NCBI RefSeq assembly: GCF_026626335.1
Contig: NZ_JAPNTZ010000001.1
Span: 868,001 to 932,000 of the forward strand
DNA from: Paractinoplanes pyxinae
GTDB lineage: Bacteria > Actinomycetota > Actinomycetes > Mycobacteriales > Micromonosporaceae
Length of the DNA stretch: 64,000 nt
Direction of reading: 5' to 3'
A model generated the notes under the pieces. The model saw nothing but the letters and a program-made list of their open reading frames with translations, did not search any database and was not told the origin of the DNA. The position numbers and the translations under genes were made by a program. Shown piece after piece: positions 45,838 through 51,301 of the stretch. Within the stretch, counting starts at the first letter, position 1; each line of letters opens with the position of its first letter.

Positions 45838-45858
45838 GGGTGTACCGCGGGTACACCC
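45838..45858. promoter_or_regulatory. Operator 1 of the XRE-linked palindrome family
   Basis: Perfect palindrome with 9-bp arms GGGTGTACC and GGTACACCC separated by GCG, 48 bases upstream of the SDR gene. Related sites occur at 48518-48538 and 49028-49048, each ending in the same GGTACACCC half. I infer binding by the XRE regulator encoded at 47604-48485. Confidence 0.7.
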
Positions 45859-45905
45859 ATCGTCAGAGACTTCTGCCGATCAGGAAAAGCGAGTGTGCTG
45901 AAGAC

Positions 45906-46562
45906 ATGACCACGATTGCCATCATCGGAGCCGGGCCGGGCCTGGGGGCCGCGGTCGCCCGGCGGTTCGGAGCGGAAGGCTTCGACGTCGCCCTCGTCGC
46001 GCGCGGGCGCGAACACCTCGACAAGCTCGTCGCCGAGCTGACTGGAATCAACGCCCGGGGATACGTGGCGGACGTGCGGGACGCCCGGGCGCTCGGCGCG
46101 GCTCTCGACCAGGCGGCCCAGGAGCTCGGGCCGATCGAGGTGCTGCAGTACAGCCCGATCCCGCAGAAGGAATTCCTGAAGCCCGTCCTCGAGACCACCA
46201 CCGACGACGTACGCGCCGCTTTCGAGTTCTCCGTTCTCGGGCCGGTGACCGCCGTCCAGGCGGTGCTGGGCGGGATGCGGGAGCTGGGCCGCGGTTCGGT
46301 GCTGTTCGTCAACGGCGGCAGCGGCGCCCGGCCCAATCCGAAGGTGGCCGGCACGTCGATCGCCTTCGCCGGCGAGGGCGCCTACGGCTCGATGCTGCAC
46401 GACACCCTGGCCGCCGAGGGCATCCACGCCGGCCAGCTGATCGTGCCCGGCGCCATCACGCCCGGCCACCCGACGCACGACCCGGACGTCCTGGCCGAGC
46501 GTCTGTGGCAGATGCACACGAGCCGCGGCGAGTTCCGCGTGTATGCCGAACCTCTGCCGTAG
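45906..46562 (+). CDS. SDR-fold protein with incomplete catalytic motif
   Basis: A Rossmann-fold short-chain dehydrogenase-like protein of 218 residues. The cofactor motif [15 protein letters not shown] is near residues 8-22, and an NNAG-like position reads YSPIPQ. The usual YxxxK is not seen: the stretch [10 protein letters not shown] has the Tyr but no Lys four residues on. It may therefore bind a nucleotide without normal dehydrogenase chemistry. ATG at 45906 is chosen because the upstream extension runs into the operator. The dehydrogenase gene follows on the same strand. Confidence 0.78.
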
Positions 46563-46596
46563 TTCTTCGTTGTACCGAAAGATCAAAGGAGCCATC

Positions 46597-47640
46597 ATTC
46601 TCACCGTCAACGCCATCGCCGCGCCCTCGGCCACCGAGCCGCTCGTCCGCACCACCATCGAGCGCCGCGACCTCGGGCCGCGCGACATCCTCATCGAGAT
46701 CCGCTACGCCGGCATCTGCCACTCGGACATCCACACCGTGCGCGGGGAGTGGGGCGAGGTGGCCTACCCGCTGACCGTCGGGCACGAGATCGTCGGGTCG
46801 GTCACCGAGGTCGGCTCGGAGGTCAGCAGGCACGCCGTGGGCGACCGGGTCGGGGTCGGCTGCATGGTCAACTCGTGCCGCGAGTGCCCGAACTGCCGCG
46901 CCGGCCAGGAGCAGTACTGCGAGAACGGCAACACCGGCACGTACGCGAGCGTCGACCGGGACGGCACCACCACCCAGGGCGGCTACTCGACCCACGTCGT
47001 GGTCGACGAGGACTTCGTGCTGCGGGTTCCCGAGGCCATCCCGTACGAGGCGGCGGCCCCGCTGCTGTGTGCGGGCATCACCACGTACTCGCCGCTGGCG
47101 CACTGGAACGCCGGGCCGGGCAAGAAGGTCGCCGTGGTGGGCATGGGCGGCCTCGGGCACATGGCGGTCAAGATCGCCGTGGCCATGGGGGCCGAGGTGA
47201 CCGTGCTGTCGCAGACGCTCGGCAAGAAGGACGACGGGCTGGCCTTCGGCGCCGAGAACTACCACGCCACCCGGGACGCGGCCACGTTCGAGGCGCTGAA
47301 GAACACCTTCGACCTGATCATCAACACGGTCAGCGCGCCCATCGACATGGCCGCCTACCTGGGCCTGCTGCGGCTGGACGGCACGCTGGTCAGCGTGGGC
47401 GCGCCGCCGGAGCCGCTGGCCGTGCCGGTGTTCGCGCTGTTCGGCAACCGGCGCTCGTTCGCCGGCTCGGGCATCGGCAGCATCGGTGAGACGCAGGAGA
47501 TGCTGGACTTCTGCGCCGAGCGCGGCATCGCCCCCGAGGTCGAGCTCATCACGGCCGACCAGGTCAATGAGGCGTACGAGCGGGTTCTGAAGTCCGACGT
47601 GCGCTACCGGTTCGTGATCGACATCGACTCGTTGCGCTGA
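46597..47640 (+). CDS. Zinc-dependent alcohol dehydrogenase, YahK/AdhB-like; non-AUG start likely
   Basis: A medium-chain dehydrogenase of about 347 residues with catalytic zinc ligands in [10 protein letters not shown] and GHEIVG, a full structural zinc site [15 protein letters not shown], and the cofactor site [13 protein letters not shown]. Relatives reduce aldehydes with NADPH. The start is odd: the strong AAAGGAG at 46585-46591 is followed by ATC ATT, not ATG, and homologous sequence begins at the TVNA residues just after. ATT at 46597 (or ATC at 46594) fits best. TTG 46570 and ATG 46543 are in frame but lack a good ribosome site, and the latter overlaps the SDR gene. Confidence 0.85.
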
Positions 47641-48485
47641 GTCGTCGCGGCCCAGGACTCCAGGAGTTTGAGCGCCTGGGCCGTCGGCGACGCGGGCTCG
47701 GCCGAATAGATCGTCAGCGTGAGGTCGGCCTCGGCCCGGAGATCCATGCTTTCGTACGCGAGAACGAGCTCACCCACGGCATGGTGGTGGAAGACCTTGA
47801 CGCCGGTGCCGTGGGTGCGCACGTTGTGCGACCCCCACCGCCGCCGGAACTCGTCGCTGCGGGTCGACAGCTCGCCTACCAGGTCGTGGATGCCCTTGTC
47901 GTGCGGGTCCTTGCCGGCCGCGGTGCGCAGGTTGGCCACGAACATGTCGGCGAACAGGTTCCAGTCCGGATAGAACCGGCGGGCGCCGGCGTCGAGGAAC
48001 GTGAACAGCCCGAAGTTCGGCACCGCGTCCGGATCGGTGAACAGGTCGCTGTGCATGGCCCGGCCCAGGTGGTTGGTGGCCACGAGGTCCTGGCGGTTGT
48101 TGACCAGGATCGCCGGCGTGTGGATGGCATCCAGGGACCACTGCACATTCGGCCGGACGGTCCACTGCTTGGGCCGGCGGGCGGGCCGCACCAGGTTGCT
48201 GCTGCCGTTGGCCGAGCTGGCCAGCCGGAACAGGTGAGTCCGCTCCGCCTCGTCCAGCTGCAACGCCCGCGCGATCGCGTCGAGCACCCCGGCCGACACG
48301 CCCGCCAGCGAGCCCCGCTCGAGTTTGGCGTAGTACTCGACGCTCATCCCGGCCAGCGCGGCCACCTCGCTGCGCCGCAGCCCCGGCACCCGCCGCTGCC
48401 CGGCGCTGGGAATGCCCGCCCGCTCCGGCGTGATCTTCGCTCGGCGGGTGGTCAGGAAGTCCCGCACCTCGGCTCGGTTGTCCAC
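47604..48485 (-). CDS. XRE-family regulator, MmyB-type
   Basis: A 293-residue regulator from GTG 48485 (GAGGAG upstream). The N-terminal HTH contains [21 protein letters not shown], broken here at residue 45, the usual form of actinobacterial XRE/MmyB proteins. A C-terminal MmyB-like ligand-binding domain (about 100-270) follows, with [17 protein letters not shown] near 170. These regulators often respond to fatty acids or other small molecules and control adjacent dehydrogenase or transporter genes. It lies in the middle of the palindrome-bearing block and is divergent from the small membrane protein. It overlaps the dehydrogenase gene's end by 37 bases. Confidence 0.87.
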
Positions 48486-48517
48486 TCCTCGACGGTACGA
48501 CGCGCACCGGCCGCCAG

Positions 48518-48538
48518 GGATGCACTGCCGGTACACCC
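48518..48538. promoter_or_regulatory. Operator 2 of the XRE-linked palindrome family
   Basis: Left arm GGATGCACT, spacer GCC, right arm GGTACACCC; the right arm is identical to operator 1 and the left arm matches six of nine bases. It lies between the XRE gene start (48485) and the divergent membrane-protein gene (48559), just upstream of a -10-like TAAGAT. Confidence 0.65.
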
Positions 48539-48545
48539 CACCTCC

Positions 48546-48551
48546 TAAGAT
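48546..48551 (+). promoter_or_regulatory. Putative -10 element, near-leaderless transcript
   Basis: TAAGAT lies seven bases before the GTG start at 48559, so a transcript starting just after it would have almost no leader. The GTG has no Shine-Dalgarno. Operator 2 would cover the -35 region, consistent with repression. Inferred only. Confidence 0.4.
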
Positions 48552-48558
48552 CACCCCG

Positions 48559-49023
48559 GTGCGCACAGAACCGATCACCATCGATGGTGTGGCCGGCCCG
48601 GTCGTGGTCACCACCGGCCGCTTCGGCGGCGCGGCCCGGGTCGAGGTGAACGGGGAGGTCGTACCCCAGTTGGGTGACCGCCACCACCGGCTGCCGGCCA
48701 CCGGCGGCGGCACTGTCGAGGCCGTGGTGCGGGGCGGCACGTTCGACCCGTACCCGACCGTCGAGGTCGGCGGGGTGAAGCACCGCACCGGGCCGAAGGT
48801 GAACGGCGTCGTGCAGGCCCTGGCCTTCGCGCCGATGATCATGGCGATCACCAGCGGCCTGGTCGGCGGGCTGGTCGGCCTGGCCGGCGTCCTGGCCAAC
48901 GCGACGCTGCTGCGGTCCCGCCTGCGCCCCGGCGCCAAGGTGCTCGCCGTCATCGGGGTCGACCTGGCCGTGATCGTCGTGGCCGTCGCCCTGGCTATGG
49001 CCGTCCGGCACGCGATCGACTGA
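48559..49023 (+). CDS. Small membrane protein of unknown function
   Basis: A 154-residue protein from GTG 48559. Residues 1-75 form a beta-rich soluble part (VVVTTGRFGGAARVEVNGE; VVRGGTFDPYPTVEVGG), followed by two hydrophobic helices (about residues 90-115 and 130-150). I do not recognise the family. It lies between operators 2 and 3, the first gene of its unit, and may be leaderless. The context (XRE regulator, efflux pump, dehydrogenases) suggests an accessory role in the same regulon. Confidence 0.6.
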   Translation: MRTEPITIDGVAGPVVVTTGRFGGAARVEVNGEVVPQLGDRHHRLPATGGGTVEAVVRGGTFDPYPTVEVGGVKHRTGPKVNGVVQALAFAPMIMAITSGLVGGLVGLAGVLANATLLRSRLRPGAKVLAVIGVDLAVIVVAVALAMAVRHAID

Positions 49024-49027
49024 GCTG

Positions 49028-49048
49028 CGGGGTACTGCCGGTACACCC
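49028..49048. promoter_or_regulatory. Operator 3 of the XRE-linked palindrome family
   Basis: Left arm CGGGGTACT, spacer GCC, right arm GGTACACCC. It is followed at 49050 by TTGACA, a consensus -35 hexamer, in front of the MFS exporter gene. The right arm is identical in all three sites, and the left arm matches operator 1 at six of nine positions. Confidence 0.65.
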
Positions 49049-49095
49049 CTTGACAGGAACTCCCCGGGGCGGCCGGGACGCGCTGTGATGGGTGG

Positions 49096-50310
49096 GTGAA
49101 GCTCTCCGCCGGCGTCGTCGGCACCGTCGTCTTCCTCACCGCCATCGCCCCGCTGGCCACCGACATGTACGTGCCGGCGTTCCCGCGGGTGGCCGGTGAG
49201 CTGGCGGCGTCGGCGACCCAGGTGCAGCTTACTTTGACGACGTTCTTCGTCGGGATGGCGCTGGGCCAGCTGATCGGCGGCCCGGTGTCGGACCAGCGGG
49301 GACGCCGCCGGCCGCTGCTGGCGGCGATCGTGCTGATGACCGTGGCCTCGGTGGTGTGCGCGCTCACGCCGTCGATCGGGGTGCTGATGGCGGCCCGGTT
49401 CGTGCAGGGGTTCAGCGGCGGCTGGGCGATGGTGATCGGCCGGGCCGTGATCGTCGACCTGGCCTCCGGGCCCCGGCTCGTACGGGTGTTGAACGTGATC
49501 GCCGGAGTGGGCGGGGTGGCGCCGATCGCCGGGCCGCTGCTGGGCGCGGTCATCCTGCAGGTGTCGGACTGGCGGATGTCGTTCTGGGCGGTGGCCGCCC
49601 TCGGCGTCGCGATGCTGGTGGCGGTGCTGGTCGCCGTGCCGGAATCGCTGCCCGTGGAGCGGCGGCACGGCGGTGGGCTGCGGGCCTTCGCAGTGGCCGG
49701 GCGGCAGGTGCTCTCGCGGCGCCGCTACGTCGGGTATCTGCTGGTCAGCGGCTCGGCGATGGGAGCCCTGTTCGCGTACGTGGCGACGTCGGCCTTCGTC
49801 CTGCAGTCGATGAATGGCCTGTCGCCGATCGGGTACTCGGTCGACTTCGCGGCCAACGCGGCCGGCATGACCGTGGCCGCGCTCGTGGCGGCGCGGCTGG
49901 CCGGGCGCGTGTCCACCCGCCGGGTGATCCTGACCGGGCAGATCGCGGCCCTGGCGGCCGGGGTGGCGATGCTGGCCGGGGCGCTGTGGTTCGGCACCCC
50001 GCTGCTGCTGGCGATCGTCTGCTTCCTGGTGCTCATGACGGCGCAGGGGCTGATCGGGCCCAACGGCGGCGCGCTGGCGTCGGCCGAGGTGCCCGAGCAC
50101 CCCGGCACCGGGTCGGCGCTGCTCGGGTTCGTGCAGTGGGTGGCCGCCGGCACCATCGCCCCGATCGCCGGGCTCGGCGGGGAGCACACCGCCGTACCGA
50201 TGGCCCTGTTGATGGTCGGCGGGGCTGTTCTTTCGATGGCCGGGCTCGCCCTGGCCGGATCAAGTGAGAGGAACAACTATGCGTGGCGTAGTTATGCACG
50301 CGCCCGGTGA
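49096..50310 (+). CDS. Bcr/CflA-type MFS multidrug exporter
   Basis: A 404-residue major-facilitator protein with about twelve hydrophobic segments. Marks include an acidic motif with TDMYVPAFP in helix 1 (near residues 21-29) and the cytoplasmic GGPVSDQRGRRRPLL loop (near 60-74), typical of Bcr/CflA drug:proton antiporters. GTG start with GGGTGG upstream. The stop lies 32 bases inside the next dehydrogenase gene. Operator 3 precedes it, so it should be co-regulated with the dehydrogenase units. Substrate unknown. Confidence 0.87.
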   Translation: MKLSAGVVGTVVFLTAIAPLATDMYVPAFPRVAGELAASATQVQLTLTTFFVGMALGQLIGGPVSDQRGRRRPLLAAIVLMTVASVVCALTPSIGVLMAARFVQGFSGGWAMVIGRAVIVDLASGPRLVRVLNVIAGVGGVAPIAGPLLGAVILQVSDWRMSFWAVAALGVAMLVAVLVAVPESLPVERRHGGGLRAFAVAGRQVLSRRRYVGYLLVSGSAMGALFAYVATSAFVLQSMNGLSPIGYSVDFAANAAGMTVAALVAARLAGRVSTRRVILTGQIAALAAGVAMLAGALWFGTPLLLAIVCFLVLMTAQGLIGPNGGALASAEVPEHPGTGSALLGFVQWVAAGTIAPIAGLGGEHTAVPMALLMVGGAVLSMAGLALAGSSERNNYAWRSYARAR

Positions 50311-51301
50311 CGTCCGGGTGGAGAACCGTGAGGACCCGCGGATCGAGGCGCCCACGGACGCGATCCTGCGGCTGTCGGCGACCTGCGTCTGCGGGTCCGA
50401 CCTGTGGCCGTACCGCGGTGTCGACAAGGTCGAGGGCCCGTCCCCGATGGGCCACGAGTACGTCGGTGTCGTCGAGGCCGTGGGCAGCGAGGTCACCACG
50501 GTCAAGCCGGGGCAGTTCGTGGTCGGCTCGTTCTGGGCGTCCGACAACACCTGTGAGGTCTGCCGGGCCGGCTACCAGAGCGCCTGCGTGCACCGCCAGC
50601 CGATGGGCCAGTTCGGCTCACAGGCCGAGTACCTGCGGGTGCCGCTGGCCGACGGCACGCTGGTCGGCACGCCCGAGGTGCCGTCGGACGACCTGATCCC
50701 GAGCTACCTGGCCGCCTCGGACGTGCTCGGCACGGGCTGGTTCGCCGCTACGGCGGCCGAGGTGGGGCCGGGCAAGACGGTGGCCGTCGTCGGTGACGGC
50801 GCGGTCGGCCTGCTCGGTGTGCTCGCGGCCCGGCAGCTGGGCGCGGAGCGGATCATCGCGATGAGCCGGCACGAGTCGCGGCAGCAGTTGGCCCGGCAGT
50901 TCGGGGCGACCGACATCGTCACCGAGCGCGGCGACGAGGGCATCGCCCGGATCAAGGAACTGACGAACGGGCTGGGCGCGCACTCGGTGATCGAGGCGGT
51001 CGGCACCCAGGAGTCGATGATGCAGGCGCTGCACTCGACGCGGCCCGGCGGCAACGTCGGCTTCGTCGGCGTCACCCACGACGTGAGCCTGCCCGGCATG
51101 GACATGTTCTGGTCGCTGGTCAAGGTGCAGGGCGGCCCGGCCTCCGTACGCCGGTTCCTGCCCCACCTGATGGAGCTGATCGGCAACCGGACGATCAACC
51201 CCGGCCTGGTCTTCGACCTCGACCTGCCCCTCGACCAGGCCGCCGAGGGCTACCGCGCCATGGACGAGCGCCGCGCGATCAAGACCCTGCTGCGGCCGTG
51301 A
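50279..51301 (+). CDS. Zinc-type alcohol dehydrogenase with incomplete structural zinc site
   Basis: A medium-chain dehydrogenase of 340 residues from ATG 50279, preceded by GAGAGGAAC. Catalytic zinc residues are in CVCGSDLWPYRG and GHEYVG; the cofactor site is VVGDGAVGLLGVLAA near residue 168. The structural zinc motif is CEVCRAGYQSAC, in which one of the four usual cysteines (third position) is replaced by Gly. Such variants exist, and the protein may still fold. It overlaps the exporter gene by 32 bases, so the pair is translationally linked. Confidence 0.86.
   Translation: MRGVVMHAPGDVRVENREDPRIEAPTDAILRLSATCVCGSDLWPYRGVDKVEGPSPMGHEYVGVVEAVGSEVTTVKPGQFVVGSFWASDNTCEVCRAGYQSACVHRQPMGQFGSQAEYLRVPLADGTLVGTPEVPSDDLIPSYLAASDVLGTGWFAATAAEVGPGKTVAVVGDGAVGLLGVLAARQLGAERIIAMSRHESRQQLARQFGATDIVTERGDEGIARIKELTNGLGAHSVIEAVGTQESMMQALHSTRPGGNVGFVGVTHDVSLPGMDMFWSLVKVQGGPASVRRFLPHLMELIGNRTINPGLVFDLDLPLDQAAEGYRAMDERRAIKTLLRP

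Follow-up and report, generated by a model that had tools for sequence, protein, structure and literature searches.

A predicted MmyB/MltR-type regulon with three palindromic operators and a shared promoter cassette in Paractinoplanes pyxinae

We analysed a 64,000-nucleotide (nt) stretch of the Paractinoplanes pyxinae genome (RefSeq assembly GCF_026626335.1, contig NZ_JAPNTZ010000001.1, positions 868,001 to 932,000 of the forward strand), referred to below as the window, in which three related palindromes accompany a regulator gene of the XRE type and two sets of dehydrogenase and efflux genes. The features are listed here in window coordinates. Sites were scored with a matrix built from the 45 Actinoplanes operators described below, for which 15 bits served as the presence threshold, and offsets such as +58 are counted in base pairs from the operator centre.

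45838..45858, no strand: site 1, predicted operator of the SDR-ADH operon (SDR, short-chain dehydrogenase/reductase), a perfect palindrome, 24.5 bits
45864..45874, plus strand: −35-like element CAGAGACTTCT of the site 1 target promoter, placed by its offset of 16
45894..45899, plus strand: −10-like TGTGCT, 6 nt before the SDR ATG, from the pattern of T at offsets 46 and 51
45906..46562, plus strand: SDR oxidoreductase (Pfam adh_short), ATG at +58, putatively leaderless start
46597..47640, plus strand: ADH1, zinc-dependent alcohol dehydrogenase (Pfam ADH_N/ADH_zinc_N), probable ATT start
47604..48485, minus strand: MmyB/MltR-like XRE regulator with helix-turn-helix (HTH) and MLTR_LBD domains, 293 aa, GTG start (Pfam, profile and predicted fold)
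48492..48497, minus strand: −10-like TACCGT, putatively of the XRE promoter, from the pattern of T at offsets 31 and 36
48518..48538, no strand: site 2, predicted operator of the regulator's own gene, 29.2 bits
48559..49023, plus strand: small membrane protein, 154 aa, between the regulator and MFS (major facilitator superfamily) genes, present in 1 of 67 genomes
49028..49048, no strand: site 3, predicted operator of the MFS-ADH2 pair, left half degenerate, 22.9 bits
49054..49064, plus strand: −35-like element CAGGAACTCCC of the site 3 target promoter, from the cassette alignment
49084..49089, plus strand: −10-like TGTGAT, 6 nt before the MFS GTG, from the cassette alignment
49096..50310, plus strand: Bcr/CflA-family MFS efflux transporter (TIGR00710, 231.3 bits, cut-off 200.9)
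50279..51301, plus strand: ADH2, zinc-binding dehydrogenase (Pfam, scanned from the open reading frame start at 50264)

A sequence-only reading of the window had noticed the three palindromes and considered them hard to attribute to chance, and both observations were borne out. When the window was searched for GGGTGTACC-N3-GGTACACCC with up to three mismatches, exactly three places matched, with no mismatch at 45838-45858 and three each at 48518-48538 and 49028-49048. The mean in shuffled sequence was 0.01, and none of 100 shuffles of the window reached three matches. The half site GGTACACCC occurs four times, compared with 0.29 copies expected, and all four copies lie within the three sites; a matrix scan of the window found no further site of at least 12 bits. 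In the whole genome (10.18 Mb), the same pattern search returned nine places, three of them in the window, and the reversed pattern four. Five other matches were inspected, two from the 10.18-Mb search and three from a further scan: four fall in long reading frames rich in G+C at third codon positions (GC3), and the fifth (L002) lies seemingly just 5′ of a start codon, without the promoter cassette described below.

The centres of site 1 (45848) and site 3 (49038) each lie 58 bp 5′ of a start codon, the ATG of the SDR gene and the GTG of the MFS gene, respectively. Site 2 has its centre (48528) at 43 bp from the start codon of the XRE gene, and it overlaps the −35 expected for that gene. The earlier reading had placed site 3 before the MFS-dehydrogenase pair, as we also find. 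It had put site 1 before the SDR-dehydrogenase genes, a context that we describe more exactly as the interval between a methyltransferase gene on the minus strand and the SDR gene (ATG at 45906), and an operator before the SDR-ADH genes was also seen in three relatives (L065, L067 and L126). Site 2 had been assigned to the interval between the XRE and membrane-protein genes; it does adjoin the XRE gene, and it is better described as the regulator's own operator than as an operator of the membrane gene.

The regulator matched PF17765 with an E-value of 1.5e-52 (178.5 bits, cut-off 26.3) and HTH_31 with 38.2 bits (cut-off 27). A phmmer search of the PDB with the single sequence gave no match at 0.001, and a profile of 19 relatives matched 3PXP (MltR) with an E-value of 4.4e-6. 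A predicted model of the regulator (mean predicted local distance difference test score 82, predicted template modelling score 0.58) aligned to 3PXP with a Z-score of 15.3 over 242 residues and a root-mean-square deviation of 12.9, and the next-best fold entry reached a Z-score of 8.8 over only 66 residues. By its HTH and MLTR_LBD domains and its predicted MltR fold, the regulator is thus assigned to the MmyB/MltR-like family. A thiol-based redox sensor was considered and rejected, since the window regulator contains no cysteine, as is the case for 42 of 47 copies (three have one and two have two); cysteine-based sensing by the regulator is unlikely.

For comparison we used 67 genomes of the genus, in which the regulator was counted as present when a match of at least 69% identity was found. 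These genomes contain 46 further regulator genes at this level. With the window gene included, the operator adjoins 45 of the 47 Actinoplanes copies, 44 times at the same position to within two bases. In named actinobacterial genomes, 74 of the 80 best-matching relatives have an operator of at least 15 bits, its centre mostly 43–45 bp from the regulator start codon (58–59 bp in Kineococcus and Quadrisphaera). The 28 named Actinoplanes-group loci among the 80 are largely the same assemblies as those from which the matrix was built; in the genera outside the matrix, the operator was found at 49 of 52 loci, a count independent of the matrix. The genera with the operator include Nonomuraea, Mycolicibacterium, Streptomyces, Kribbella, Asanoa, Lentzea and Micromonospora, as well as others. 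The 21-bp consensus appears to be about GGRTGYACT-GNC-RGTACACCC.

We also considered the possibility that the motif is common to all PF17765 paralogues. The P. pyxinae genome contains 28 PF17765 loci above the family cut-off; 27 of 29 loci were scored (L242 and L243 were left out). Only two of the 27 had the operator beside them, namely the window gene and a contig-21 copy with 69% identity to it, although the starts of distant paralogues had to be extrapolated, so that an operator there may have been missed. A motif of the whole family was therefore rejected. Because the operator is widespread among relatives of the window regulator but confined to two of the scored loci in its own genome, we regard it as a property of this regulator subfamily. 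The three palindromes are very probably operators of the neighbouring MmyB/MltR-type regulator, binding being predicted from the sites, their geometry, their conservation and their co-occurrence with the regulator gene.

When target-facing sequences were aligned on the operator centre, they were found to share a −35-like element, CAGNGACTTCC. The resulting cassette consists of the operator (−10 to +10), the −35-like element (+16 to +26), a −10 element (+46 to +51) and often a start at +58 or +59. With offsets 11–23 allowed, the −35-like element (up to three mismatches) was at offset 16 in 49 of 52 matching sites. For the further counts, we used 102 target-facing sites, i.e., the first 105 sites minus three that face the regulator (L084, L087 and L320); target genes were picked by GC3, a criterion that may select an incorrect frame, and a site was dropped when it had no suitable reading frame. 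T occurred at both 46 and 51 in 87 of the 102 target-facing sites with the −35 element, as opposed to 2 of 39 without it. A start codon was located at +58 or +59 in 40 of the 102 (for other adjacent offsets, the mean was 3.3 and the maximum 18), and sites 1 and 3 of the window both have theirs at exactly +58. In other targets, a ribosome-binding site precedes a start near +80 to +100, and the −10 stays in place. On the regulator side, represented by 94 XRE-facing sites, a TACCGT-like box occupies offsets 31–36 (T31 and T36 in 80 sites each), and in 77 sites the first start codon is at 43 or 44. From this spacing, the mRNAs of the regulator and of many targets are probably leaderless.

The sequence between the −35 and −10 drifts among these sites, while the operator, the spacing and the −10 are conserved. 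This pattern bears on the possibility that the palindromes are chance similarities or functionless relics of copied promoter DNA. Site 3, with its degenerate left half, may indeed stem from the acquisition of the membrane gene (see below), which would fit a relic. The selective conservation and the chance expectation of 0.01 per window speak against this explanation, which we consider exceedingly improbable.

The cassette also places constraints on how the regulator might act. The predicted dimer would be positioned about 58 bp 5′ of the target start, outside the core promoter, whereas at the regulator gene it would cover the −35. The target-side operator does not overlap the target −35, −10 or start, as an operator that occludes the promoter would. 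An operator upstream of the −35 is typical of activators, and one that covers the −35 allows autorepression. The sequence-only reading had proposed that the regulator represses all three sites and itself; this is not supported for the targets, with operators about 58 bp 5′ of their starts, as it is only the regulator's own promoter that is overlapped. MmyB is reported to switch its genes on and has been suggested to bind pseudo-palindromic B-boxes, and MmyB/MltR-like regulators have been modelled as ligand-activated dimers on palindromes (PMC3406030). On account of the operator position, the behaviour of MmyB and the ligand-activated model of MltR, we prefer activation of the targets from the cassette sites, combined with autorepression of the regulator gene, and consider this the rather more probable mode of action. 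A regulator dimer would bind each 21-bp palindrome, each being part of a rigid promoter cassette. Upon filling of the C-terminal pocket by a small molecule, presumably an aldehyde or other electrophile or a lipophilic compound, the dimer would contact RNA polymerase and turn on the SDR and the aldehyde reductase from site 1 and the Bcr/CflA exporter and dehydrogenase from site 3. Occupancy of site 2, covering the −35, would hold back the regulator's own gene.

The same regulator and the same sites could also be read as a repressor system, in which a dimer at −58 blocks the polymerase or bends the DNA until it is released by the ligand. Autoregulated XRE proteins are often repressors, and the operator overlaps the expected −35 of the regulator gene. 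MsrR, an XRE protein of Corynebacterium glutamicum, represses its own gene as well as a divergent mfs gene (PMC7532634). On the target side, however, the operator ends about 48 bp 5′ of the start and leaves the −35 and −10 free, its spacing to the −35 is rigid, the window holds no second site of at least 12 bits, and MmyB itself is an activator. We consequently regard repression of the targets as a possible but less likely arrangement than activation.

Sites away from the regulator gene provide a second line of evidence. ADH1, the aldehyde-reductase gene, is present in 54 of the 67 genomes. An upstream site of at least 15 bits was found for 28 of 41 ADH1 entries in regulator-positive genomes, compared with none of 15 in regulator-negative genomes; after removal of nine entries for which the regulator's own operator scored best, the counts were 19 of 32 and 0 of 15 (Fisher 6e-5). 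In these counts, only 1.5 kb of upstream DNA was available for 6 of the 15 negative and about a quarter of the positive entries (2.6 kb for the others), two positive entries are second copies in one genome, and two negative ones are 67–68% identical ADH1 relatives. The MFS gene occurs in 10 of the 67 genomes, all of them among the 41 with the regulator. Each of these 10 loci has a site scoring at least 21 bits, in several cases the regulator's own operator. In two genomes (G005 and G054), the MFS-locus operator and the regulator are on different contigs, and in a third (G024) they are about 28 kb apart. The full cassette pattern, with the regulator's own sites included, was found in 28 of the 41 genomes with the regulator and in 4 of the 26 without it (Fisher 4e-5); the reversed cassette pattern had no match in any of the 67 genomes. 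Taken together, conservation upstream of orthologues, co-occurrence with the XRE gene and the scarcity of unrelated sites largely hold, with exceptions. Conservation and co-occurrence support the earlier proposal of a single MmyB-type XRE regulator that would bind an operator at its own promoter and control a redox/efflux regulon.

The second regulator of this type in the genome (L110, G000 contig 21, 53670-54503) is 69–70% identical and has a related operator of 16.1 bits with the same cassette. The gene at +58 of this operator resembles the cyclophilin-like (PF18050) targets described below. Paralogues at 54–58% identity have the same operator in some cases (L111–L113 and L120), while in others (L116–L119 and L121–L124) the half sites vary and carry ACC in place of the ACA of ACACCC. 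Within L111–L124, the change from ACA to ACC is accompanied by changes in HTH residues 50–54 (E50D, A53T and K54R) and by a one-residue loop insertion. The first group of helices has E50 in 49 of 49, A53 in 48 of 49 and K54 in 44 of 49 sequences; the second has D50 in 8 of 8, T53 in 8 of 8 and R54 in 7 of 8. This suggests a specificity code in which the helix SVEYYAKLE goes with ACACCC and SPDYYTRLE with the varied half sites. The groups are related by descent, and the covariation of helix and half site is a lead rather than proof.

Several observations weigh against the assignment of the sites to the window regulator as an activator. Six of the 80 named relatives lack an operator at 15 bits, and 13 of the 41 ADH1 entries in regulator-positive genomes lack a site of at least 15 bits. 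One genome (G015, L191) has a full cassette before an ADH2 gene, yet no close regulator orthologue, and another (G004, L008) likewise has a perfect palindrome, in a different context, without one. The genomes are related and are not independent samples, and many of the counted sites come from close relatives. Crosstalk or redundancy with the 69% identical second regulator is possible, and operator position alone would not prove activation. Some of these points would fit a different assignment, in which the sites are read by another regulator, such as the contig-21 copy, with its related operator and the same cassette, or an unrelated TetR-type protein; the sites in G015 and G004 would also agree with this. 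Against it, the palindrome tracks the promoter of the window-type regulator itself at 74 of 80 loci in many genera, and the operators of some more distant paralogues vary together with the recognition helix. We consider another reader of the sites improbable.

To describe the regulon, 95 target references (94 distinct, drawn from the first 105 sites) were scanned for family matches. The predicted targets comprised 42 zinc dehydrogenases, 18 MFS proteins, 17 cyclophilin-like proteins (PF18050, several with lipoprotein-like signals as judged by eye), 6 SDRs, 4 proteins of the dienelactone-hydrolase type, 2 aldo-keto reductases and 2 DUF2255 proteins. The best NCBIfam model for the window ADH1 was AldhRedAhr (aldehyde reductase Ahr), with 307 bits, below the cut-off of 470. 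From this content, the regulon may serve generally to detoxify aldehydes or further compounds that are reactive or lipophilic.

As elsewhere in the family, the regulator is divergent from an SDR, MDR (medium-chain dehydrogenase/reductase) or related target; in the window, the membrane gene intervenes. The genes divergent from 100 distinct regulators were ADH2 (25), cyclophilin-like (20), MFS (11), ADH1 (5), cupin (2), hydrolase (1) and SDR (2), with 34 not assigned to a class; the SDR query was one base off (45907 for 45906), making SDR matches unreliable and leaving too few SDR targets among the tree labels. A quick tree was made of the 100 regulators; with the 33 rows that had no target label left out of the count, the divergent class changes at least 18 times among the 67 labelled rows. 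Support is below 80% for 38 of the 97 inner branches, and the strongly supported branches alone force fewer changes (10 for ADH2, 5 for MFS, 3 for ADH1 and 2 for cyclophilin-like). On this quick tree, then, the targets (zinc dehydrogenases, exporters, cyclophilin-like proteins and SDRs) would have been swapped repeatedly, at least 18 times. A broader interpretation, to which we give an even chance of being right, is that of a portable cassette: the 21-bp palindrome would serve as a two-way switch between leaderless promoters, repressing the regulator and activating a gene 58 bp away. The regulator, operator and spacing would have stayed near constant across the actinobacteria while the detoxification or export gene under control was exchanged repeatedly, and copies of the target half would have spread to unlinked operons that follow the presence of the regulator.

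The small membrane gene had been counted among the regulated genes in the sequence-only reading. We rejected it as a regulon member, as it occurs in only 1 of the 67 genomes and site 2 belongs to the regulator gene itself. The protein had no Pfam or NCBIfam match. The gene is flanked by a 16-base direct repeat, ACTGCCGGTACACCCC, in two copies (48540-49032). In the near relative G034 (L065), which lacks the membrane gene, the regulator and the MFS gene share one operator; in the window, the regulator half has stayed with site 2, and the target half with site 3. The membrane-gene event may thus have duplicated the operator. Because G034 has a single operator where the window has the membrane gene in between, we regard the three-site pattern as a local elaboration of a two-site regulon. 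Separately, TAAGAT 7 nt before the GTG of the membrane gene suggests a leaderless promoter of its own.

The start of ADH1 was also unusual. Its start position in the window (46597-46599) reads ATT, and in-frame TTG and ATG codons lie 9 and 18 codons upstream. The position could be placed in 52 of 56 ADH1 entries (the other four were not located), with ATT in 28, ATC in 11 and ATG, GTG or TTG in 13. Of the 39 ATT/ATC genes, 23 have no canonical start between the ATT or ATC and the preceding in-frame stop, and in the 39 the next canonical codon is 16–68 codons inside the conserved protein. GGAG or GGAGG is usually present 5–7 nt upstream of the ATT or ATC. The pattern was seen in orthologues L065–L184, L248, L329, L331, L332 and L334, and further genera of the family, as well as Micromonospora lupini, likewise have ATT or ATC there. 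ADH1 of the regulon thus seems to initiate at ATT or ATC; a literature search on this start gave no closely matching paper.

For most PF17765 regulators, we found no operators, regulons or signals described. For one subfamily, the present analysis provides a concrete operator, a base-level promoter map and a predicted regulon of aldehyde reductases, dehydrogenases and Bcr/CflA exporters. It also offers a rule for reading targets off a genome: for a leaderless mRNA, the start codon is expected at a distance of 58 bp from the operator centre.

We did not find the operator printed in the literature searched, which did not extend to supplements. A catalogue of 223 XRE palindrome clusters (PMC12565409) resembles our approach in that palindromes upstream of XRE genes were identified by comparison. 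The main-text parts of that paper drawn on here do not deal with targets, spacing or unlinked sites, and the window motif may be present in its cluster supplement. MsrR of C. glutamicum is similar to the window regulator in being an autoregulated XRE protein beside a divergent mfs gene, with its operator in the shared intergenic region (PMC7532634); it differs, according to the same sections of that paper, in its length (240 aa) and its thiol-based redox sensing, the window regulator having no cysteine. The closest likeness is to the MmyB/MltR family, with which the window regulator and its relatives share the HTH and MLTR_LBD domains and the divergent SDR/MDR-type targets. The fatty-acid head-group residues of MltR are apparently not conserved in the window regulator as judged by eye; Asn176 of MltR aligned to a residue other than Asn, and Tyr227 fell inside an insertion, assuming a one-residue tag in the chain numbering. 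Many paralogues per genome are described for this family, and in S. coelicolor, 15 of 16 are transcribed away from a putative target, many of these targets being SDR/MDR genes (PMC3406030). The parts of that paper drawn on here give no operator sequence for the SDR/MDR-linked members; the present analysis adds a predicted operator, its promoter cassette, unlinked targets and target swapping.

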